A stretch of 64,000 bases of DNA, from assembly GCF_014205115.1 (NCBI RefSeq), contig NZ_JACHMW010000001.1:1674001-1738000 (forward strand), in the 5' to 3' direction. Below are positions 6,270 through 44,376 of the stretch, in pieces; positions within the stretch are counted from its first letter, which is position 1, and the number at the start of each line of letters is the position of its first letter. A program made the translations under genes and the position numbers. A model generated the notes under the pieces. The model ran no database searches, had not been told where the DNA came from, and worked only from the letters and a program-made list of their open reading frames with translations. Source of the DNA: Micrococcus endophyticus (GTDB taxonomy: Bacteria > Actinomycetota > Actinomycetes > Actinomycetales > Micrococcaceae).

Positions 6270-8195
6270 TCACTTGGCGGTGACGGCCACGTCGTCGATG
6301 CGGAACACGGTCGAGTTGGAGTAGTCCTCCACGCCGCGGAACCGCAGGGTCACGGTCTTGCCCTTGTAGGCGGACAGGTCCACGGTGTGCTGGGCGTAGG
6401 AGGTGCCCTTCTCGAGGTTGGAGTGCGACTTCACGGTGGTGGTCTGGGAGCCGTCCACGACCTGCACGGCCAGGGTGTCGTACTGCGAGCGGGTGGTGGT
6501 CTCGTCCGAGCCGACCTGCAGCCAGTAGCTCAGGCTCGCGCCGGAGGCCGGGACGGTGACGCGCTGCTCCACGGTGCCGGTGTTCGAGCGGCCGTAGCCG
6601 TTGAGCACGCCGTAGTTGGAGCCCGAGCGGGCGTAGCCGGCGGCGTTGCCCACGAAGTCCGAGGGGGTGCCGGTCCAGCCGGTGGCGCCGGACTCGAAGC
6701 CGCCGTTCACGATGACGCCGGTGGGGGTCGGCTCCTCCGGGGTGGTGGTCCCGCCGCCCAGCGCCGCGACGGCCCGGGTGGCGTCCACGAGGCCGGCGCC
6801 GCAGCCCGCGGAGCAGGCGACGGGCATGGAACGCGCGGTGGACTTCAGGGTGGACTCCACCTGGGCCGGGGTGATGCCCGGCTGCTGGGCGAGCATCAGG
6901 GCGGTCAGGCCCGCGACGTGCGGGGTGGCCATGGAGGTGCCGTTGTAGGAGGCGTGGCCGGCCGTGGTCGGCGTGGTCAGACCCTTGTTGATGGTGGAGA
7001 TGATGCTGCTGCCGGGGGCGGTCACGTCCACGGCGGAGCCGTAGTTGGAGAATGAGGAGCGGGCGCCCTGGCTGGTGGAGGCGGCCACGGTGATGACGTT
7101 GGAGCAGTTGGCCGGGCGGGCGTTGGCGGCCGGCTGGTTCTCGTTGCCGGCGGCGACGACCACGGGCACGCCGCGGTTCACGGCGGCGTTGATCGCGTTC
7201 TGGTAGGTGGTGCCGCAGGTGCCGGAGCCGCCGAGGGACATGTTGATCACGTCCGCCGGGTTGGCGTTCGCGGGCACGCCGGTGACGCTGCCGCCCGAGG
7301 CCCAGACGATGGCGTCGGCGATGTCGGCCAGCGAGCCGCCGCACTTGCCGAGGACGCGGACGGGCTGGATCTTGGCGTTCGGGGCCACGCCCACCACGCC
7401 CTGGGTGTCCGTCACGGCGGCGACGGTGCCGGCCACGTGGGTGCCGTGCCAGGAGGAGTTGCCGGGCTGCGAGGCACCGCACTCGCCGGCGGCGTACCAG
7501 TCGCCCTCGTCGCGCGGGTTGGAGTCGCGGCCGTTGCCGTCGCGCGCCGCGGCGGAGCTGGAGTTGAAGTCGTAGCCGGCCACGACGTTGCGGTCGAGGT
7601 CGGGGTGGGAGGTGATGCCCGTGTCGAGCACGGCCACGGTGACGCCGGAGCCGGTGTTGTAGTCCCAGGCGCCGGGCACGCGCATGCCGTTGGTGCCGGT
7701 GAAGCCCCACTGCTGGGAGTAGAGGGCGTCCGCCGGGCTCAGCCCGGTGGCGGTCATGATGGCGTTGGGCTCGACGTCCTCGACGGCGCCGGAGGCCTTG
7801 AGGTCGGCCATGAACCGGGCGGACTCGGACTGGTCCAGCTTGCGGTCGGCCTGGACCACGTGGGAGCCGAGGGCGGTCTCGCGCAGCTCCTTCACCGAGA
7901 CGCCGGCGGCCTTGGCGGCCTTGCCCCAGGCCAGGGCGCGGCCCTTGCCGTTGGAGTTCTGCGCGGTCTCCTTGTAGGTGACGATGAAGGAGTCGTAGCC
8001 GTCGGCGTTGGGGTCCGCGGCGTCGGCGGTGGCCAGCGGGGCCGCGGCGGCGGGGCGGGGGGCCTGCTCGGCCCGGGCGCCCTCGGCGGGGGCGGCGAAC
8101 GCGGGCGAGCTGGTCAGGGCGCCGCCGGCGAGGACGGCGCCGGCCAGGAGGGCGCCGACGCGACGGCGGTTGCTGTGCTGCACGGAGGACTTCAC
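6270..8195 (-). CDS. Secreted subtilisin-like serine protease (S8) with C-terminal beta-sandwich domain
   Basis: 641 residues from a GTG with GAGGAGAT upstream. Order: signal peptide (1-35, cleavage near AFA-APA), inhibitor I9-type propeptide (about 65-145), S8 catalytic domain with Asp191 (VAVLDTG), His250 (HGTHVAG) and Ser421 (GTSMATPHVAG), a Thr/Pro linker (about 475-490), then a C-terminal domain of about 150 residues rich in beta-strand pattern, resembling carbohydrate-binding or jelly-roll modules. Paired cysteines suggest disulfides outside the cell. Extracellular protein degradation is the likely role. It is monocistronic, with its own terminator and a palindrome in the upstream region. 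Confidence 0.95.
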   Translation of the reverse strand: MKSSVQHSNRRRVGALLAGAVLAGGALTSSPAFAAPAEGARAEQAPRPAAAAPLATADAADPNADGYDSFIVTYKETAQNSNGKGRALAWGKAAKAAGVSVKELRETALGSHVVQADRKLDQSESARFMADLKASGAVEDVEPNAIMTATGLSPADALYSQQWGFTGTNGMRVPGAWDYNTGSGVTVAVLDTGITSHPDLDRNVVAGYDFNSSSAAARDGNGRDSNPRDEGDWYAAGECGASQPGNSSWHGTHVAGTVAAVTDTQGVVGVAPNAKIQPVRVLGKCGGSLADIADAIVWASGGSVTGVPANANPADVINMSLGGSGTCGTTYQNAINAAVNRGVPVVVAAGNENQPAANARPANCSNVITVAASTSQGARSSFSNYGSAVDVTAPGSSIISTINKGLTTPTTAGHASYNGTSMATPHVAGLTALMLAQQPGITPAQVESTLKSTARSMPVACSAGCGAGLVDATRAVAALGGGTTTPEEPTPTGVIVNGGFESGATGWTGTPSDFVGNAAGYARSGSNYGVLNGYGRSNTGTVEQRVTVPASGASLSYWLQVGSDETTTRSQYDTLAVQVVDGSQTTTVKSHSNLEKGTSYAQHTVDLSAYKGKTVTLRFRGVEDYSNSTVFRIDDVAVTAK

Positions 8196-34454: not shown

Positions 34455-34716
34455 CTACTGGTGGGTTGACCCTCGACGGGCAATCGAGGTGTAGAGGGTC
34501 TGCCGGCTCACCCCGAACGCGCGCGCCACCTCGGCCTTCGGGATCCCCATCTCGATCATCACGCGCGCCTGCTCCACGTCGGTGTCCGAGAGCTTCGGGG
34601 CCTGGACGTACTTGCCGCGGGCCTTGGCCAACGCGATGCCCTCGGCCTGACGCTCCTTGATCCGCCGGCGCTCGAACTCAGCGAACGCCGCCAGGATGCC
34701 CAGCATGAGCCCATCC
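34455..34716 (-). pseudogene. 3' part of a serine recombinase cut by the transposon
   Basis: 87 codons remain: GLMLGILAAFAEFERRRIKE (end of the resolvase catalytic domain), a linker (GKYVQAPKLSDTDVEQA) and the C-terminal helix-turn-helix (MGIPKAEVARAFGVSRQTLY). The reading stops at the left tip of the transposon (34717). The N-terminal half with the catalytic Ser is not found on the far side of the transposon. Family: resolvase/invertase. Confidence 0.88.
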
Positions 34717-34811
34717 TGTGACCTTCGCCGGTAAATGGCGGTGTTCTGTCGATGCTCCGTGGCGGCTTTAGTTGGTGGTACCGATGACAAGCGTGGTCTG
34801 GCCGTCCGTGG
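34717..34811. repeat. Left terminal inverted repeat with fossil tniB end
   Basis: Matches the inverse of the right end. Beyond the strong 55 bp, the similarity covers the last codons of tniB: read on the minus strand, the left end encodes TTLVIGTTN-stop, close to the TniB C-terminus STLVIGTT-stop. Confidence 0.75.
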
Positions 34812-34852
34812 TCGAGAGTCCTGCCGCCGATGCGAGGGCGGCAGTGTCATCG

Positions 34853-35182
34853 TCAGCAGCTGAGGTGTCCTCGTCGACGTAGCCAGATCTCCAGGGGAAT
34901 GGTCGTCAGTGGCGGTACCGCGGCGATGATCGAGAGAGCTGTGACCCGCCATGGCCACCGCAGGGTGATGGCGGTGATGAGCGCTATGGCGAGGTTGATG
35001 AGGAACATGCCGCCGTGCAGGGCGCCGAAGATGCTGACACCGACGTCGGTTGTGCCCGTCACGTACTTGAGGAGCATCCCGGCGAGCAGACCAGCTCAGG
35101 TGAAGGCTTCGAGAAAGGCCGCGACGATGGAGACTCTTGCAACAAGCGGAAGTCCATAACGCTGCTGGGTGCTTGCGCTCAT
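34853..35182 (-). pseudogene. DUF3817 membrane protein gene with a nonsense codon
   Basis: 109-codon reading from ATG 35182 (overlapping the tetR stop by 4 nt): SASTQQRYGLPLVARVSIVAAFLEAFT-stop-AGLLAGMLLKYVTG..., a three-segment membrane protein of the DUF3817 family (often next to MFS exporters). Codon 29 is TGA (35096-35098) where the family usually has Trp (TGG), a one-base change. An internal ATG at codon 35 could allow a truncated product. It is the third gene of the mfs-tetR cassette. Confidence 0.82.
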
Positions 35183-35751
35183 TGGTTCGCCTCGTTGCTC
35201 GGGAGTTCGTCTGCGTCCGCGACGGAGCGGGCGAGGTGCTCTGCCAGCGCGGCGCGCAGCTGGTGGGGTAGTGGGATCGCGCCGACGGATTCGCTGAGCC
35301 AAAGACCGTCGGCAGCGAGGTAGGCGACCATCTTCTGCAGTGCCCGAGGGTCGGTCGGGTCGATGCTGGCGGGGTCGGGGACCCAGCGAGTGATGACTCG
35401 TTTCCACGGCTTGCTGAGCTCGCTGTCGGTGCTCGCTTCGAGCATAAGCAGTAACTCCGCGCCGGTGGCGCCGCGGGCGCTGACTCGGGCATAGGCGGCG
35501 AGTCGCTCATCCTGCGATGCCTCATCCGGGTCCTTGCCCAGTGCGTGGATCATCTCCTCGTCCCAGTGCTGGGCTTGATGTTCGTGCAGCGCGAGCATCA
35601 TGGCGTCCTTCGAGGGGAAGTGGTAGAGCAGCCCGCCTTTGGTGAGTCCGGAGGCTGCGGCGACGGATTCGTACGTGAGCGCCGTGACGCCGTCGGTCTC
35701 GACAACGCTGAGGGCGGCCTTGAGGATCGTGTCCCGTTTACTGGTCCGCAT
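35179..35751 (-). CDS. TetR family regulator of the efflux cassette
   Basis: 190 residues. N-terminal HTH (about 5-50: RDTILKAALSVVETDGVTALTYESVAAASGLTKGGLLYHFPSKDAMM) and a variable C-terminal ligand domain resembling the TetR_C_37-like group (WVPDPASIDPTDPRALQKMVAYLAADGLWLSE). It starts 17 bp after the MFS stop and its own stop overlaps the DUF3817 start, so all three are one operon under the promoter at 37297-37324. Probably a drug-responsive repressor of its own operon. Base composition is lower in GC than the core genes. Confidence 0.93.
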   Translation of the reverse strand: MRTSKRDTILKAALSVVETDGVTALTYESVAAASGLTKGGLLYHFPSKDAMMLALHEHQAQHWDEEMIHALGKDPDEASQDERLAAYARVSARGATGAELLLMLEASTDSELSKPWKRVITRWVPDPASIDPTDPRALQKMVAYLAADGLWLSESVGAIPLPHQLRAALAEHLARSVADADELPSNEANQ

Positions 35752-35768
35752 GGGCGATCCTTTCTCGG

Positions 35769-37268
35769 TCAGTGCTCGGAGTGCAGCTGTGACTGGGTGC
35801 CAGGCAGGTACCGGCGCAGAAGCACTCCGGTGATGACTGCGCCCACCGCGAGAACGACTGCGACGACCAGCATCACAACGAGGTAGGCGGAATCGAAAGC
35901 CGTCGCCGCCGCCTGGAGGATCTCTGCGTCACCCTGCGCAGCAGCCTGTGCCTCAGCGATGCTGTTGCCAGCCGCGTCCGGGGCGCCGTCGGGTAGAACG
36001 ACGCGTGCGCCGTAGATAGCCGTGAGCAGGCTCCCGAGCACGGACACTGCAATGAGGCTGCCGAACTCGTAGGAGACTTCTTCGATCGAGGCGGCCATGC
36101 CTGCTCGGCGCACCGGCACGTTCCCGATAATCGCGGTGGAGGCGACCGCCAAGGCGGCTCCGATACCAGCTCCGGTCAACAGCAGTCCGAGGATCAGCAC
36201 GCCGAAGGACGACTGGAATCCGATGACCGTCACCACGACGCCGCCGGTGGCGAAGGCGAGACCGCCGGTGATGAGCGCGAGCAGTCCGGTGCGGTGCAGG
36301 AACGCGCCCCCCAGGAGCGCTGTCGGCAACGTGCCCACGGCGATCGCGGCGACCAAGAGCCCAGCTTCCAGCGGGCTGAATCCGGCGACCTGCTGGAATC
36401 GCTGCGTAGTGACGAGCTGGATGCCCCCGATCGCGAACATCGCGAACGACGCGGCCAGCACTCCGGCAGTGAACGCCGGGTTGCCGAAGATGGAGAACTC
36501 CAACAGAGGTTGCTCCATACCTCGCTGACGGCGCACGAACAGCCAGAACCCGATGGCAGCAACGAGCAGCGCAACAATGATGGTCGTTGCCGAGGGCGGC
36601 GCGTGGCCGATCTCTTTGATGGCCATCACCGTTCCGACAAGCCCGATCATCACCAAGATCGAGGAGATGGCATCCCATCGCTTCGAGGGATCCGGGTCGT
36701 TGGCCGGGCGGATCAGCCAGGTAGCGACCAGCGCCAGCACCACAACGGGCACGTTGATCAAGAACACCGAGCCCCACCAGAAGAACTCAAGGAGTGTGCC
36801 GCCAATAATCGAGCCGAGGGCGAACCCGATGACCGACATACTTCCCCAGACCGCGATGGCGAAATTGCGCTCACGCTCGACCGTGAAAGTGGTGCGGATC
36901 AGCGCCAGGGTGGCCGGCATCATCGCTGCCGCACCGACAGCGAGCACAGCACGCGCAGCGATCAGGACCTCGGGTGACGGAGCGAACGCTGCCAGCAGGG
37001 AAGCCAGTCCGAAGATCACCAGACCGACAACAAACATCCGCGTGTGGCCGATGCGATCCCCCAGGGTTCCGCTGCCCAGCAACAGCCCCGCCATCACCAG
37101 GGGGTAGGCATTGATAATCCAGAGGTTCTGTGTGTTCGAAGCCTGCAGTTCCTCAGTCAGCGTCGGCAGGGCCGTGTAGAGAATCGAGTTATCCATGGTG
37201 ATCAGCAGCAGACCTGCTCCAACCGTCACCAGCAGCGACCAGCGTCGCCTCTTCGTCATCGCGGACAT
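35769..37268 (-). CDS. MFS drug exporter (DHA2 family, 14 membrane segments)
   Basis: 499 residues, proton-driven efflux. Motif D1-like region in the first segment (LLLITMDNSILYTALPTL, Asp27), motif A-like GSGTLGDRIGHTRMF (about 66-80), RAVLAVGAAAMMPATLALI for motif B, and GSIIGGTLLEFFWWG for motif C of antiporters. Length and 14 predicted segments fit the QacA/SmvA/LfrA group that exports quaternary ammonium compounds and dyes; the actual substrate is unknown. First gene of the cargo operon. A 28-bp palindrome lies 28 bp before the ATG. Confidence 0.93.
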   Translation of the reverse strand: MSAMTKRRRWSLLVTVGAGLLLITMDNSILYTALPTLTEELQASNTQNLWIINAYPLVMAGLLLGSGTLGDRIGHTRMFVVGLVIFGLASLLAAFAPSPEVLIAARAVLAVGAAAMMPATLALIRTTFTVERERNFAIAVWGSMSVIGFALGSIIGGTLLEFFWWGSVFLINVPVVVLALVATWLIRPANDPDPSKRWDAISSILVMIGLVGTVMAIKEIGHAPPSATTIIVALLVAAIGFWLFVRRQRGMEQPLLEFSIFGNPAFTAGVLAASFAMFAIGGIQLVTTQRFQQVAGFSPLEAGLLVAAIAVGTLPTALLGGAFLHRTGLLALITGGLAFATGGVVVTVIGFQSSFGVLILGLLLTGAGIGAALAVASTAIIGNVPVRRAGMAASIEEVSYEFGSLIAVSVLGSLLTAIYGARVVLPDGAPDAAGNSIAEAQAAAQGDAEILQAAATAFDSAYLVVMLVVAVVLAVGAVITGVLLRRYLPGTQSQLHSEH

Positions 37269-37296
37269 GCGCGTCTTCCTCTCGTCGTGAACGACA

Positions 37297-37324
37297 TAAC
37301 TGTACCGGATGGATGGTGTAGTTA
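37297..37324 (-). promoter_or_regulatory. 28-bp operator-like palindrome at the efflux promoter
   Basis: Imperfect palindrome TAACT-NN-ACC-N8-GGT-NN-AGTTA, 28 bp before the MFS start codon and overlapping the probable -10 region (TACAGT on the minus strand). Its size and position suit a TetR dimer pair; binding by the cassette's own TetR is inferred. Confidence 0.65.
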
Positions 37325-37600
37325 AGTCGACGGAGGGAGAGACTCACGGCGCGCGCTGTGCATGGCGCGCGGGCGGCGAAGCTTGGAAGGTTTTAGAGCG
37401 AAGGCGCGGCACTTCGATGCAGGCAAAACCGGACGAGCTGGTGCCTCAGTTGGGTACAGTTTTACGAGACATCCGACGGTAGGTGCGACGGGAACCCACG
37501 TCCTGCGTGCACGTTCTCTCGGGGCTGTCTTGCGAAGTCGTCTCGACGGAGAATGCCTCACAGGGGTGCGGTCTATGGGCTTGTGAGTCATGCTGAGCGT
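37325..37600. other. Gene-free region before tnpR, probable res site
   Basis: About 276 bp between the divergent MFS and resolvase genes. Related elements place the resolution (res) site here. I see a GCGCGC...GCGCGC inverted pair (37350-37375) and two related tracts near 37463-37484 and 37527-37550, but cannot define subsites. Confidence 0.4.
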
Positions 37601-38203
37601 ATGAGGCTTCTGGGATATACGCGGGTGAGCACGGCGACGCAGGATGCGCAGCTGCAAGTCGATGCGCTGGTGGAGGCCGGGGTGCAAGAACGGGACGTGT
37701 TCTCCGATGTGACCTCGGGTAGCCGGGTCGCGATCGAGCGGCCGGGGATGAAGCGGCTGCTGGACTACGCCCAGGACGGTGACACGGTGGTGGTCTGGCG
37801 CATCGACCGGCTCGGCCGGTCCCTCATCGATGTCCTGAACACGGTCACGCTGCTGCGCGGCCAGGGCATGAAGATCCGATCGGTCTCCGACGGGATCGAC
37901 CCGGAGACGACGTCGGGCCGGATGATGCTGGGCATGCTCGCCACCCTGGCCGAGTACGAGCGCGAGCTGATCACCGAACGGGTCAATGCCGGGATCGCCG
38001 CGGCGAAGCAGAATGGCACCCGCTTTGGCCGGCCTCCGGTCGACCCGGCTGTGATCGCGGAGAAGCTCGAGATCGCGGGCGATGCCCGCGCGAAGGGCCG
38101 TACCGCCGAGGATGCCGCTCGACTCGTCGGCTGGTCGCGGGCGACGCTCTATCGCCACCAGCAGGCGGCCCGCGCCCGCGAGGCCGTCGCCGAGCAGGCG
38201 TGA
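37601..38203 (+). CDS. tnpR: Transposon resolvase (serine recombinase)
   Basis: 200 residues from ATG at 37601 (MRLLGYTRVS); a longer upstream reading is rejected because this is the family start. Catalytic Ser10 (YTRVST), then RIDRLGRSLIDVL, GRMMLGMLATLAEYERELITERVNAG (catalytic-domain end and helix E), and a Hin-type HTH (AEDAARLVGWSRATLYRHQQ). It resolves cointegrates formed during replicative transposition. Two bases separate its stop from tniA. Confidence 0.95.
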   Translation: MRLLGYTRVSTATQDAQLQVDALVEAGVQERDVFSDVTSGSRVAIERPGMKRLLDYAQDGDTVVVWRIDRLGRSLIDVLNTVTLLRGQGMKIRSVSDGIDPETTSGRMMLGMLATLAEYERELITERVNAGIAAAKQNGTRFGRPPVDPAVIAEKLEIAGDARAKGRTAEDAARLVGWSRATLYRHQQAARAREAVAEQA

Positions 38204-38204
38204 A

Positions 38205-39599
38205 ATGGACGGGCCAGCGCGATGGCGCATCCTCCGGCTGCACGTCGAGGACGGTATCCCGCTGAGCGCCCTGGCCCGGGAGACCGGGATCGGGTTGCGC
38301 ACCTTGGAGCGCTGGCACGCCCGCTACCGTGCCGACGGGTACGCGGGCCTGGAGACAGGACAGCGCTCAGACGCCGGCACCCACCATCTGCCCACGGAGC
38401 TCGTGCGGTTGATCGAGGGCCTGGCGCTGAGCAAGCCCCGGCCTGCGATCGCCACGCTCCACCGCAAGGTCACCGGCATCTGCGGTACCCGAGGGTGGCC
38501 GGTGCCCTCCTACGGGGTGATCCGCTCGATCGTGGCGGCGCTCGATCCGGGCATGGTCACCCTCGCCCTGGAGGGCGCGGCCTCCTACCGTGACAAGCAC
38601 GAGCTGGTGCTGCGCCGGCAGGCCGACCGGCCCAACGCGATGTGGCAGAGTGACCACACACTGCTCGACATTCTCGTGGTGGGTACCGACGGCAAGCACG
38701 CCCGCCCCTGGCTGACGACGATCCTCGATGACTGCTCCCGCGCGATCTGCGGCTACACCGTCTTCCTCGGTGCGCCGTCCGCGATGAACACCGCCCTGGC
38801 GCTGCGGCAGGCGATCTGGCACAAGTCCGACCCGGCCTGGCCGATGTGCGGCCTGCCGGACGTGCTCTACGTCGACCACGGTAGTGACTTCATCAGCCAC
38901 CACCTCACCCGCACCGCCGTCGACCTGCACATCCGGCTGATCCATTCCACCGTCGCCCGTCCGCAGGGCCGGGGCAAGATCGAACGGTTCTTCGGCACCG
39001 TCAACACCGAGCTGCTCGCTGACCTGCCCGGCTACATCACCGAGGGCCACCCCGCTCCGACGCCGAAGCTGTCCCTGGCCGAGCTCGACAGCGCGGTGGA
39101 GGAGTTCGTGGCCACCTACAACGACCGGATCCACAGCGAAATCGGCACCTCGCCGCGCATCGCGTGGATCGCCGAGGGCTGGCTGCCGCGCATGCCCGCG
39201 AACCTGGAAGACCTCGATGGCCTGCTGCTCACGGTCGCCCAGTCCCGGGTGGTGCGCCGTGATGGCATCCGCTTCCAGGGCCTGCGCTACGTCTCCCCAA
39301 CGCTGGCCGGCTACGTCGGACGGTCAGTAGTGATCCGCTACGACCCCCGCGACATCACCGAGATCCGCGTGTTCGACCATGACGAGTTCCTCTGCAAGGC
39401 AGTCAACCAGGAGCACCACGATCAGAAGATCGGCCTCAAGGAGATTCAGGCTGCCCGCAACGCTCGCCGTCGCGCCCTGCGCCAAGGCATCAATGAACGG
39501 ATCGCCGTCGTCGCCGCGAACACCACCGAGAAGCCACCGACAGCCGAGCCGCCGGCGCCGCGGCGGAAGTTGAAGGTCTACAAGGAGGACCTGAGGTGA
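38205..39599 (+). CDS. tniA: TniA-like DDE transposase (Mu/TnsB type)
   Basis: 464 residues from ATG at 38205, directly after tnpR. N-terminal HTH (PLSALARETGIGLRTLERWHARY), rve catalytic core with Asp150 (WQSDHTLLD), Asp224 (YVDHGSDF) and Glu260 (QGRGKIERFFG), giving DD-35-E spacing, then a Mu-type C-terminal beta domain (VRRDGIRFQGLRYVSPTLAGYVG) and a basic tail that probably contacts TniB. Joins transposon ends to target DNA. Shorter than Tn7 TnsB, as in Tn402/Tn552 transposases. Confidence 0.94.
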   Translation: MDGPARWRILRLHVEDGIPLSALARETGIGLRTLERWHARYRADGYAGLETGQRSDAGTHHLPTELVRLIEGLALSKPRPAIATLHRKVTGICGTRGWPVPSYGVIRSIVAALDPGMVTLALEGAASYRDKHELVLRRQADRPNAMWQSDHTLLDILVVGTDGKHARPWLTTILDDCSRAICGYTVFLGAPSAMNTALALRQAIWHKSDPAWPMCGLPDVLYVDHGSDFISHHLTRTAVDLHIRLIHSTVARPQGRGKIERFFGTVNTELLADLPGYITEGHPAPTPKLSLAELDSAVEEFVATYNDRIHSEIGTSPRIAWIAEGWLPRMPANLEDLDGLLLTVAQSRVVRRDGIRFQGLRYVSPTLAGYVGRSVVIRYDPRDITEIRVFDHDEFLCKAVNQEHHDQKIGLKEIQAARNARRRALRQGINERIAVVAANTTEKPPTAEPPAPRRKLKVYKEDLR

Positions 39600-40405
39600 A
39601 CCAGCGCTTCATCGTCACCAAGGAGCATCGCCGCTTCACCGAGTTCGCCGACGCTGTCCGCCGCGGCCGCACCATCGGTCTGTGCTTCGGACCGGCCGGG
39701 GTGGGCAAGACGCTGTCCGCGCGCCGCTACGCCCACTGGGAGAAGGCCTATGACCTGCTGACCTACTGGGGGCCGCGCGCCGACAGCGACGCCAAGGTCT
39801 ATGCCGCTCTGGCCCGCAGCCGCACCGTGCTCTACACCCCCAGCGTCCTCACCACCCCACGGGTGCTGAAGGACGAGCTCGACCAGGCCCTCGCCCGCAC
39901 CAGCATCTGCATCGAGCAGCACCTCGAAGCAGTCGGCCAGATCACCCCGGCCCGACGGCACGGCAGGAACTACGTCGAGCTGCTCATCGTCGACGAGTCC
40001 GAACGGCTCCGTCCCACCGCGCTGGAGCTGCTGCGCGATCGCTACGACCGCGACAACATCGCGCTGATCCTGATCGGCATGCCCGGGCTGGAGAAGCAGT
40101 TCAGCCACTACCCCCAGTTCTACAGCCGTGTCGGCTTCGCCCACCAGTACCGGCCCCTGGGCACGGACGAGCTGCTGTTCGTCCTCCAGCGTCACTGGCG
40201 CTCCCTGGGCAAGACCCTCGACTCCGAGGACTTCACCGACGCTCAGGCCATCGCCACCATCACTCGCATCACCCGCGGGAACTTCCGACTGCTAGAGCGG
40301 CTCTTCCCGCAGATCGAGCGCGTCATGAGGATCAACGAGCTCGACACCATCACCAACGATGTCATCGAAGCAGCTGCCAGCACTCTCGTCATTGGCACCA
40401 CCTGA
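39596..40405 (+). CDS. tniB: TniB-like AAA+ ATPase of the transposon
   Basis: 269 residues from a GTG overlapping the tniA stop (GTGA). Walker A FGPAGVGKT (31-39), Walker B LLIVDESERL (about 129-138), arginine-rich C-terminal helices. TnsC/TniB proteins choose and hand over the target to the transposase and confer target immunity. Its last 12 codons lie inside the right terminal repeat (40370-40456), so coding and end functions overlap. No TniQ gene follows. Confidence 0.93.
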   Translation: MNQRFIVTKEHRRFTEFADAVRRGRTIGLCFGPAGVGKTLSARRYAHWEKAYDLLTYWGPRADSDAKVYAALARSRTVLYTPSVLTTPRVLKDELDQALARTSICIEQHLEAVGQITPARRHGRNYVELLIVDESERLRPTALELLRDRYDRDNIALILIGMPGLEKQFSHYPQFYSRVGFAHQYRPLGTDELLFVLQRHWRSLGKTLDSEDFTDAQAIATITRITRGNFRLLERLFPQIERVMRINELDTITNDVIEAAASTLVIGTT

Positions 40406-40456
40406 GACCGCCACGGAGCATCGACAGAACCCCGGCATTTACCGGCGAAGGTCACA
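40370..40456. repeat. Right terminal inverted repeat of the transposon
   Basis: The inverse of 34717-34805: GAGACCGCCACGGAGCATCG through GGCGAAGGTCACA. It includes the tniB stop codon (40403-40405). Confidence 0.85.
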
Positions 40457-40809
40457 GTCTCGTGGGCGGGCGGGGTGTGTAAAGGGGTATACCCGACTGG
40501 ACGGTTTCTCAGGCACACCCTAGAGCGGCATCCCCACCTCGTGGCCTCCTCCCGGCCAGGATGGGCGGCGGGCACCCTCGCGCGACGCATCTCACGAGGC
40601 CCGGGTACACGGATCGGTGGGAGTGGGCCGGGCTGGGCGTTATTAGTTCACGAATGCTTCCGCGTGAGCTGCGCGCGCAGGGCTCGGCCAGTGTGGGTCT
40701 CCATGGCGGGCAGGTTGGCGGCCGGGCCTTTTGGATGCCGCATGCGACGCATCTGCACGACGCTCACCAGAGGGCGATCTCCGCAAAGGGCAAGGTTAAT
40801 CAACCAGTG
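40457..40809. other. Gene-free junction with an orphan IS5-type end
   Basis: Holds a lone inverted-repeat tip (40503-40523; read on the minus strand CTAGGGTGTGCCTGAGAAA) like the ends of the IS5-family element at 43441 and of the MITE. No transposase is attached. I see no gene, and no trace of the missing 5' half of the recombinase broken at 34716. Confidence 0.6.
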
Positions 40810-41671: not shown

Positions 41672-42043
41672 TCACATAAGTGGTCCGTGGAGCTCGGTTA
41701 CGGTAGAAGCATGGGCGCATGGTGGCAGCTTGAAACAGGGAGCCGGCTGACACCGTTGAACGGCAAGAACACGGTTCCAGATGAGTTGATGCTCCTGGTC
41801 ACGGACGCGGATCACTTCGTCGATGAGGCCCAAGTTGAAGCGCTGTCCGAGCTCGAGGCCTGCGGACGTGAGGACGGGCCGGTACGAACTGGTACCACCG
41901 GGCTCGAGGTAACCATGAGCCTCGAGGTCCGAAGACGCCTTCTGAATCTTGAGGTTGACCCCGTTGGGTGGACATCCTCGCGCGTCCTGACTTTGTTCCC
42001 TAACGGTCACTGCGAGTTTCGGCCCATCTGGTGTTTCGGCCAT
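41672..42043 (-). CDS. Possible small protein, weakly supported
   Basis: 123-codon open frame from ATG 42043 (MAETPDGPKLAVTVREQ...), with a stretch (SSDLEAHGYLEPGGTSSYRPVLTSAGLELGQ) reminiscent of a winged helix, and a divergent position relative to the pentapeptide gene. A plus-strand frame overlaps it (41687-42163). No clear ribosome site; it may not be real. Confidence 0.35.
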   Translation of the reverse strand: MAETPDGPKLAVTVREQSQDARGCPPNGVNLKIQKASSDLEAHGYLEPGGTSSYRPVLTSAGLELGQRFNLGLIDEVIRVRDQEHQLIWNRVLAVQRCQPAPCFKLPPCAHASTVTELHGPLM

Positions 42044-42159
42044 CGTTTGCGGGCAGACCGCGTGAGCGTGCGACGCCTTGGCCACGCCCCGACCCGGCCA
42101 CCTGGCCGAAATCCCTCGTTAGTGAGCGGACCGAACGACGAGTTTGCGACACTGGGCGC

Positions 42160-43344
42160 ATGAGCGACGGCCCAATCACTCCCCCGCACCCGAAAGTCGG
42201 CATGGTGCCCGCGCAGCCTGCGGCCAAGCCCGAGCGCGGCCGGGTGAAACACCCGCGCCTGTGGGGAGTGCTGGGCTGGGCAGCCACCGCCGTGATCCTG
42301 GGCCTGATCGTGGCCGCCGTACTCACGATCGTGCTGTGGCTCATGTTCCGAGGCGTATGGCCCTGGGACGACAGCGACAGGCTCAAGGTCAAGGGCATCG
42401 ACCTGCTGAAGCTCGCCCTGAGCGTCGTGGCCGGCGCAGGCGGTGCGGTCGCGCTGACCATCTCGGTGCTCAAACAGCGCATCCTCGAGCGCGACGCCGA
42501 AGGCCAACGGGCCGAGGCTGCGGCCCAAAGAGAGGTCGATGCGGCGTTCCGGTCCCGCTACGGTGAGGCCGCGACTCAGCTCGGCAGTGACCGGGCGGCG
42601 GTACAGCTGGCCGGGGTGTACGCGATGGCCAACCTGGCCGACGACTGGCCTGAACAGCGCCAGCAGTGCGTCGACGTGCTGTGCGGGTTTCTCCGCCTCC
42701 CCCCACCCGCCGATGAAGGTCTAGGGGCTGCGGACGCGAAGATCCGTACCACCATCGGCGCTGTCCTCCGCGACCATCTACAAGAAGGAGGCGCGTGGTG
42801 CGGGCTCGACTTCAACCTCATCGGCGCCTACTTGGTCGACCTGGACCTCATAGGTGCTCGCTTTACCGGCCGGAACACCTGGTTTACCGGGGCGCAGTTC
42901 ACCGGCGAGCACACCACGTTCGACCTGGCGCGGTTCGCCAGCGAGCACACCTCGTTCGCCGAGGCGCGGTTCACCGGCGAGCACACCTCGTTCGCCGAGG
43001 CGCGGTTCACCGGCGAGCACACCACGTTCGCCAAGGCGGAGTTCACCGGCAAAACCACCTCGTTCGGCGAGGCGGAGTTCACCGGCAAAACCACCTCGTT
43101 CGGCGGGGCGGAGTTCACCGGCGAGAACACCTGGTTCGCCGGGGCGGAGTTCACCGGCGAGCACACCTGGTTCGCCGGGGCGGAGTTCACCGGCGAGAAC
43201 ACCTGGTTCGGCGGGGCGGAGTTCACCGGCAAAACCACCTCGTTCGCCGGTGCGCAGTTCACCGGCAACCGTGAGCAAGTGTTTAAGGAAGCGGTCGTGC
43301 CACAGTATGCCCTAATCGGGGCGCAATTCGCAGTCGAGCCGTAA
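42160..43344 (+). CDS. Membrane protein with C-terminal pentapeptide-type repeats
   Basis: 394 residues from ATG at 42160. Two membrane segments (about 37-65 and 86-106), a helical cytosolic region (about 110-190: ILERDAEGQRAEAAAQREVDAAFRSRYGEAATQLGSDR, then VYAMANLADDWPEQRQQCVDVLCGFLR), and from about 230 a right-handed-helix-like domain of twelve-residue units (A-x-F-T-G-x-x-T-x-F-x-x) akin to Pentapeptide_3. Actinobacteria carry many such proteins with the same VYAL-LADD linker; their function is unknown. The ATG has no strong ribosome site. Confidence 0.82.
   Translation: MSDGPITPPHPKVGMVPAQPAAKPERGRVKHPRLWGVLGWAATAVILGLIVAAVLTIVLWLMFRGVWPWDDSDRLKVKGIDLLKLALSVVAGAGGAVALTISVLKQRILERDAEGQRAEAAAQREVDAAFRSRYGEAATQLGSDRAAVQLAGVYAMANLADDWPEQRQQCVDVLCGFLRLPPPADEGLGAADAKIRTTIGAVLRDHLQEGGAWCGLDFNLIGAYLVDLDLIGARFTGRNTWFTGAQFTGEHTTFDLARFASEHTSFAEARFTGEHTSFAEARFTGEHTTFAKAEFTGKTTSFGEAEFTGKTTSFGGAEFTGENTWFAGAEFTGEHTWFAGAEFTGENTWFGGAEFTGKTTSFAGAQFTGNREQVFKEAVVPQYALIGAQFAVEP
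42856..43269 (+). repeat. 36-bp tandem repeats within the pentapeptide gene
   Basis: Eleven full 36-bp units and a partial one, in frame. The core GTTCACCGGCGAGCACACC or its AAAACC variant recurs nearly unchanged, with neighbouring units more alike than distant ones, indicating recent slippage or unequal exchange. Confidence 0.9.
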
Positions 43345-43490: not shown

Positions 43491-44376
43491 ATGTCCCGGT
43501 TCCAGATGCTCTCCGACGCCCAATGGGAGTTGATCGCCCCGATGCTCCCGACCCGGACCGGCCGCGCCGGCAGGCCGTTCGCCGACGCCCGCGCCATGGT
43601 GGAGGCGATCATCTACCGGTACCGGTGCGGAATCGCTTGGAGGGATCTGCCCGAGGTCTACGGGCCCTGGCAGACCGTGTGGACCTGGCATCGGCGCCTG
43701 GCCGAAAAAGGCACCTGGGACACGGTGCTGGCCACGCTGACCGCCGCCGCTGACGCCGAAGGCCTGATCGATTGGTCGGTCTCGGTGGACTCCACGATCG
43801 CCCGCGCCCACCAGCACGCGACGAACATCACCCGCCACACAGGGGGATGGATCGAACTACAAGAATCCGCGTGAGGAGCCGGCCGATCACGGCATCGGGC
43901 GCTCCCGTGGCGGGCTGAGCACGAAGATCCATCAGCTCGTCGATGGGACCGGGCTGCCGCTGGTCAGCCTGATCACCCCCCGGCCAGGCAGGGGACTCCC
44001 CGATGCTGCTTCCTCTTCTGGAGCAGCTGCGCGTGACCCGGCCAGTAGGGCGGCCCCGGACCCGCCCCGAGGCCGTGCTGGGCGATAAGGCGTACTCCTC
44101 CCGGGCGATCCGCACCCACCTACGCGCCCGTGGGATCAAAGCGGTCATCCCCGAACCGGCCGACCAGCAGGGCCACCGCAGACGGCGCGGTGCCCGCGGC
44201 GGGCGCCCCGTCAGCCTCGACGCGGACGCCTACAAGGGCCGCAACGTCATCGAGCGTCAGTACGCTCACCTGAAGCAGTGGCGGGGTCTGGCGACCCGGT
44301 ATGACAAGTACGCGATCATCTACAGGGCCGCTGTGGTCCTGAATGCTGTGCTCGCATGGTCAAAAGGGACTGGTGC
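43491..44376 (+). pseudogene. IS5-family transposase (split and frameshifted)
   Basis: First frame (43491-43874): MLSDAQWELIAPMLP, YRYRCGIAWRDLPEVYGPW, DWSVSVDSTIARAHQHA (first Asp of the DDE set), ending in a stop at the usual ORFA/ORFB junction. The next frame resumes with NYKNPREEPADHGIGRSRGGLSTKIH, then a second slip in a run of six C (about 43976-43981) before GDSPMLLPLLEQL and VLGDKAYSSRAIR (second Asp), NVIERQYAHLKQWR (Glu). The first shift may be programmed; the second is not expected. The C-terminus is cut by the IS3 insertion. Confidence 0.8.

Follow-up and report, generated by a model that had tools for sequence, protein, structure and literature searches.

Tn552 of Staphylococcus is the textbook carrier of the staphylococcal beta-lactamase, and holds blaZ-blaR1-blaI together with the mobility genes p480, p271 and bin. 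Its ends have been reported at about 120 bp and its target duplication at 6 bp, with 10-bp repeats reported too, and it is known to hunt res sites (PMC3276174). Res-hunting is likewise known for Tn5053 (PMC7765201). No description of an actinobacterial Tn552 branch came out of a literature search. In this study, we analyzed a stretch of 64,000 nucleotides from Micrococcus endophyticus (contig NZ_JACHMW010000001.1, positions 1,674,001 to 1,738,000; hereafter the window), in which a 5.7-kb transposon occupies 34717-40456, its one strand encoding tnpR-tniA-tniB and its other strand MFS-tetR-DUF3817. The TniA tree, the order of the genes, the lack of TniQ and the choice of targets place the element with the Tn552 type and not with the Tn402/Tn5053 type. 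The best overall explanation, to which we give a probability of about 0.87, is an actinobacterial Tn552-type transposon that targets res without TniQ and exchanges its cargo through TnpR, with a mosaic copy in the window.

The ends and mobility genes were read from the sequence as follows (aa, amino acids).

34717..34777, + strand: left terminal inverted repeat; starts TGTGACCTTCGCCGGTAAATGGCGG; two TGGCGG motifs at a spacing of 24 bp; 55/61 identical to the right end
37601..38203, + strand: tnpR, serine resolvase, 200 aa; Resolvase PF00239, 1e-42; catalytic Ser in RVST
38205..39599, + strand: tniA, p480-like DDE transposase, 464 aa; rve and Mu-transpos_C domains
39596..40405, + strand: tniB, p271-like AAA+ helper, 269 aa; AAA_22, 3e-21; Walker A GPAGVGKT
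40396..40456, - strand: right terminal inverted repeat; 55/61 identical to the left end

Compared without gaps, the two ends agreed at 24/25, 38/40 and 55/61 positions. A repeat-finder search of the ends found no internal direct repeats, only the two TGGCGG motifs per end. The left-end sequence was also present at the loci that we call L004, L005, L010-L016, L106 and L108. Chance inverted repeats were considered as an account of the ends and rejected. The catalytic residues of TniA are D150, D224 and E260, the last two separated by 35 residues; a longer open reading frame starting at 38082 is not the real gene start, judged from relatives. The start of tniB overlaps the stop of tniA, and tniB ends within the right terminal repeat, 51 bp short of the right edge of the element. 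These results bear out the first-pass annotation, which had described a complete element here with ends, three mobility genes and opposite-strand cargo, and with tniB ending in the terminal repeat. Its estimate of 55 bp for the ends was about right, the repeats being 61 bp long with 55 identical positions.

We then compared the element with its relatives. A scan of genome representatives gave 163 loci with TniA relatives, and all 80 of the 80 loci that were kept were labelled actinobacterial; no relative was found on viral contigs. Six other genomes (Kocuria palustris, Enemella dayhoffiae, a Brachybacterium, Demequina sediminis, a Kocuria metagenome-assembled genome and genome G016) each held a complete copy with the same cargo, inserted at a different site; the copies measured 5754-5760 bp and were 95% identical. 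Five of these six were flanked by 8- or 9-bp target duplications (8 bp in G016), and the Brachybacterium copy had none. Copies interrupted by contig ends were found in two further genomes (L015 and L016), and Rhodococcus and Dietzia plasmids held the cargo half with its end, the matching mobility half not being attached. Among 47 elements with resolved ends, a set that includes the pair L053/L054, apparently one and the same insertion, target duplications were found in 35, of 5 (1), 6 (9), 7 (8), 8 (7), 9 (9) and 10 (1) bp. Two additional elements with 8- and 12-bp duplications brought the total to 37/49. In the host's family, 128 of 395 genomes matched the element somewhere, mostly in the resolvase, transposase or exporter gene alone; none of the ten other listed members of the host's genus had the element. 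The first-pass annotation had named two findings at odds with a transposon, namely ends that recur nowhere else and cargo genes at the same place in relatives lacking the transposition genes. Neither was seen, because ends and cargo recur as a unit in other genera, five times with duplications.

Other members of the family were noted during the scan. The same genome carries a second, 6.3-kb element (G000:C1, about 1338.3-1344.7 kb; L123:9328-15621), whose TniA is 64% identical and which has tnpR, tniB and a 12-bp duplication, CACGGGAAGGGT. An alphaproteobacterial element on a Pseudosulfitobacter plasmid (L097, CP069018) has a TniA about 59-61% identical and recombinase genes on both sides.

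The sites of insertion were examined in 48 elements, the preceding set with one of the duplicate pair removed and two elements added. An outward-pointing serine-recombinase gene lay within 1 kb of 20 of the 48. Such genes were found in 21/92 flanks and in 1/123 control segments taken 3-6 kb away (p=6e-8), and the recombinase start, where present, was usually 45-118 bp from the element end. The palindrome AACGNNCGTT, which resembles the core of a resolvase site and was accepted with at most one mismatch, was enriched in the first 120 bp (16/92 vs 3/123, p=2e-4). The landing habit of the family is res-hunting as known for Tn552 and Tn5053.

A candidate res region was found between the cargo and tnpR, with site I about 144 bp upstream of tnpR, towards the cargo.

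37442..37471, + strand: putative res site I; palindrome TGCCTCAGTTGGGTACAGTTTTACGAGACA with a GTAC centre; the module switch falls at the centre
37526..37549, + strand: putative accessory res subsite, TGTCTTGCGAAGTCGTCTCGACGG; better conserved in the L010-L016 alignment than the DNA around it

The cargo half of the element (34717-37458) was 97-100% identical to L010-L016 and 95-100% identical to L004 in every bin, the value being 99-100% in nearly all bins. The bin past 37458 fell to 52% identity, and the remainder, the mobility half, was 87-95% identical, or about 93%, to the complete copies L010-L014. On these alignments, the window copy is read as a mosaic of a cargo half and a mobility half, broken at site I. 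At L004:5001-12820, on a Rhodococcus pyridinivorans plasmid, the same cargo half stands before another complete mer element, which has a left end of its own at 7775, and the outer flanks repeat 25/26 bp.

The flanks of the window copy record a disrupted serine-recombinase locus.

34455..34716, - strand: left flank; what remains of the target serine-recombinase gene, a C-terminal part of 86 codons; Resolvase and HTH_7
40457..40700, no strand assigned: right flank; 97.6% identical to L002, the intact paralogue, where the segment starts about 61 bp before the recombinase gene

The recombinase locus is intact at the paralogue L002/L124 of the same genome and on a Micrococcus luteus plasmid (L008). 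In these, the two flanks are 378-380 bp apart; here they directly adjoin the element, and 378 bp are lost. The left end falls inside the recombinase gene near codon 106, beheading it, and the right end lies about 61 bp upstream of its start. A target duplication was looked for at the flanks of the window copy and none was found. A left end inside a recombinase gene was also observed at L073 of Tersicoccus solisilvae (left end 3032, profile position 111, where the window copy has 108), again with no duplication. The likeliest source of the missing duplication and the 378-bp loss is a res-res recombination of two insertions lying close together; failing that, a deletion made by the transposase. 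The deletion would adjoin the left end and follow a normal insertion some 61 bp before the recombinase start, the res mosaic being older; it concerns the window copy only. We consider its chance somewhat below even, and it accounts for the window copy nearly as well as res-res recombination. The right end stands as far upstream of the recombinase as is usual, no base of the left end is missing, and a loss of direct repeats after insertion has been suggested for Tn5053-family elements (PMC7765201), all of which a deletion would fit. On the other side, the cargo half is far closer to its relatives than the mobility half is, as would fit a recent res-res crossover, and L004 has the opposite product of such a crossover, with a 25/26-bp target repeat on its two outer flanks.

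The switch at res was not confined to this cargo. In other lineages, near-identical mobility halves were joined to differing cargo halves, with breaks, counted from the tnpR start, at -136 (L020/L021 and the L024 group), -138 to -143 (the L007 group), -140, -144 and -146, in six other lineages altogether; the L024 group had further breaks at other places. The break of the L007 group lies inside a palindrome around AAACGAACGATT. As the same switch point recurs in other clades, it is probably TnpR that exchanges cargo halves at res. An exchange by homologous recombination, or by stepwise gain and loss, would make the res break the mere edge of the conserved mobility half. The mobility halves are indeed the most conserved part, so that changes outside them would seem to end at their border, and nested ends and IS elements in L004, L005, L006 and L033 show that other rearrangements occur. 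Such an exchange is nevertheless improbable, as the details of the breaks speak against it: at L004 and L005 the cargo half retains its own half of site I, with identity lost at 37458 as in the window comparison and unrelated DNA beyond; in the L007 group the mobility half keeps the right half-site and it is the left arms that differ; and the centre of the site is where both sides of the break come together. Beyond exchange by TnpR as such, we find it reasonably likely that the actinobacterial branch is a two-piece kit, in which a mobility half is combined with cargo halves that can replace one another (mercury, chromate/metal, QacA-like efflux and others). Each piece would have one end and half of site I, the resolvase would rejoin the pieces, and landing in recombinase loci would bring the partners together.

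The first-pass annotation had noted the missing tniQ and proposed a Tn552-like or new actinobacterial branch, to be checked by a TniA phylogeny; both halves of the proposal hold. It did not mention the landing beside serine-recombinase genes, the lack of a duplication at the window copy, the mosaic at res or the stop codon in DUF3817. TniQ is absent between the element ends, and a PF06527 search gave zero matches in the whole genome and likewise in the genomes that carry L010, L013, L021 and L039; on Tn402- and Tn5053-type records, used as positive controls, it did find TniQ. Several TniQ genes are present in the carrier genome of L048, and there is one on the L007 plasmid, distant from the element. 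Of 44 elements, 43 had the tniB stop at 31-56 bp from their end, leaving no space for tniQ. In a TniA tree of 37 rows, the protein fell in a supported actinobacterial clade (96/99). This clade grouped with staphylococcal Tn552, one enterococcal row and one alphaproteobacterial row in a Tn552-type branch (100/99), set apart from the Tn402/Tn5053 TniA, TnsB and two other TniA. TniA shared 43-45% of its residues with staphylococcal p480 and 28% with Tn402 TniA. The gene order, cargo / resolvase / p480 / p271, is that of Tn552, as it is at L094.

A Tn402/Tn5053 derivative that lost TniQ and needs it in trans is highly improbable. Serine-recombinase targeting and the TniA-TniB-resolvase set are common to Tn402/Tn5053 (PMC7765201), as such an origin would have it. 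The low identity of TniA and its place outside the Tn402 clade oppose it, as does the order tnpR-tniA-tniB, with tniB last, against tniA-tniB-tniQ-tniR in Tn402. No TniQ was found in the host genome or in four other carriers, whose elements each have a target duplication, and the duplications are of 5-12 bp rather than a constant 5. A Tn402 origin was rejected on identity, clade, gene order and the lack of TniQ. An IS481-like or entirely new family is scarcely credible and IS481 membership was likewise rejected, as IS481 is the top NCBIfam model for TniA at 107 bits but the curated cut-off is 224, and TniA has Mu-transpos_C and, as in Tn552, an AAA+ helper and a resolvase as partners.

The cargo operon and its upstream region are as follows.

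34853..35182, - strand: DUF3817 gene; identified by translation against other copies; PF12823 on the L010 protein, E=5e-21
35179..35751, - strand: TetR-type regulator, 190 aa; TetR_N and TetR_C_28
35769..37268, - strand: DHA2-type MFS exporter, 499 aa, QacA/SmvA/LfrA-like; MFS_1
37296..37325, - strand: imperfect inverted repeat TAACTACACC-N8-GGTACAGTTA upstream of the MFS gene; kept in L006 and L009, where the surroundings vary

The best NCBIfam models for the exporter were SmvA (9e-89), LfrA (1.5e-81) and QacA/B (5.5e-80), every score lying under the model cut-off. QacA was the closest solved structure over the whole length (E=4e-79). As cargo the element carries a QacA-like efflux pump under TetR control, presumably an exporter of antiseptics. 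The first-pass annotation had called an MFS/TetR/DUF3817 operon; the three genes do lie on the opposite strand, but DUF3817 is broken, a TGA at 35098-35096 having turned Trp29 into a stop where L010-L014, L004 and L005 have Trp. From its conservation in homologues, the inverted repeat at 37296-37325 is a probable TetR operator. Neither a sigma-70-type promoter nor a terminator was found in a search near the operon. MFS-TetR pairs 84-85% identical to this one were present on Corynebacterium and Winkia plasmids, the similarity stopping short of the transposon ends and mobility genes; one such pair, at L009:5006-7928 of a Corynebacterium diphtheriae plasmid (CP103906; 84-85% DNA identity), adjoins a serine-recombinase gene.

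Two open reading frames were noted to the right of the element. The first (window 42031-43344, 437 aa) has many repeats of about 10 residues (TGEHTSFAEARF-like) resembling pentapeptide repeats, and Pfam gave no match to it. The second (window 43491-43874) encodes a DUF4096 domain of IS4/IS5-type transposases; being close to the element, it indicates other mobile DNA in the neighbourhood.

Taken together, these observations suggest a pathway. TniA, the DDE transposase, and TniB, the AAA+ helper, would insert the element without TniQ, presumably by a replicative mode, and preferentially just upstream of serine-recombinase genes, where the res sites of these genes would lie. TnpR would resolve the cointegrate at res, between the cargo and tnpR. 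It could also recombine the res sites of two different elements and so swap cargo halves, because res divides the cargo half (left end and DUF3817-TetR-MFS) from the mobility half (tnpR-tniA-tniB and right end). Recombination of this kind between two insertions in one recombinase locus would have left the window copy with its lost duplication and 378-bp gap.

Several points weigh against this account. The window copy lacks a target duplication, and its own mobility is therefore unproven. The preference is only partial, 28 of the 48 elements having no outward-pointing recombinase gene up to 1 kb away. Tn552 is described with a 6-bp duplication, whereas those of this family range from 5 to 12 bp. 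Where the staphylococcal rows fall with respect to the actinobacterial clade depends partly on long branches, and transposition and recombination are read here from sequence.

Actinobacterial relatives of Tn552 are common, with 163 loci among species representatives, and the element spreads a QacA-like pump through several actinobacterial families. Through the res break, a transposon could change its cargo by a concrete, testable path that needs neither integron machinery nor homologous recombination, and with so large a natural sample TniQ-free res targeting can be studied comparatively.

Compared with known systems, the element shares with Tn552 the three mobility genes in the same order, the absence of TniQ, cargo beyond the resolvase gene and insertion at res/sin sites, and resolvase-driven rearrangements have been described for Tn552 as well. 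It differs in its cargo, in the 43-45% identity of its TniA and membership of a separate actinobacterial clade, in ends of about 61 bp against about 120 bp, and in family duplications of 5-12 bp, as a rule 6-9, against 6 bp. With the Tn402/Tn5053 res site hunters it has in common TniA, TniB, a resolvase and the preference for res regions, but they have TniQ, which is missing here, and their gene order and TniA (28% identical, in another clade) are different. Tn7-like elements and type V-K CRISPR-associated transposons (CAST), with TnsB and TnsC, are distant homologues (TniA to ShTnsB, E=5e-52; TniB to ShTnsC, E=5e-5), whereas the element is without TnsD/TniQ, TnsA and a CRISPR part. The antiseptic exporter QacA is the nearest solved structure to the cargo exporter, although the latter scores under the NCBIfam QacA/B cut-off. 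The element belongs to a new, abundant and well-sampled actinobacterial branch of the known Tn552 kind, ordinary in mechanism, in which the signs of a resolvase-made exchange of cargo are unusually clear.

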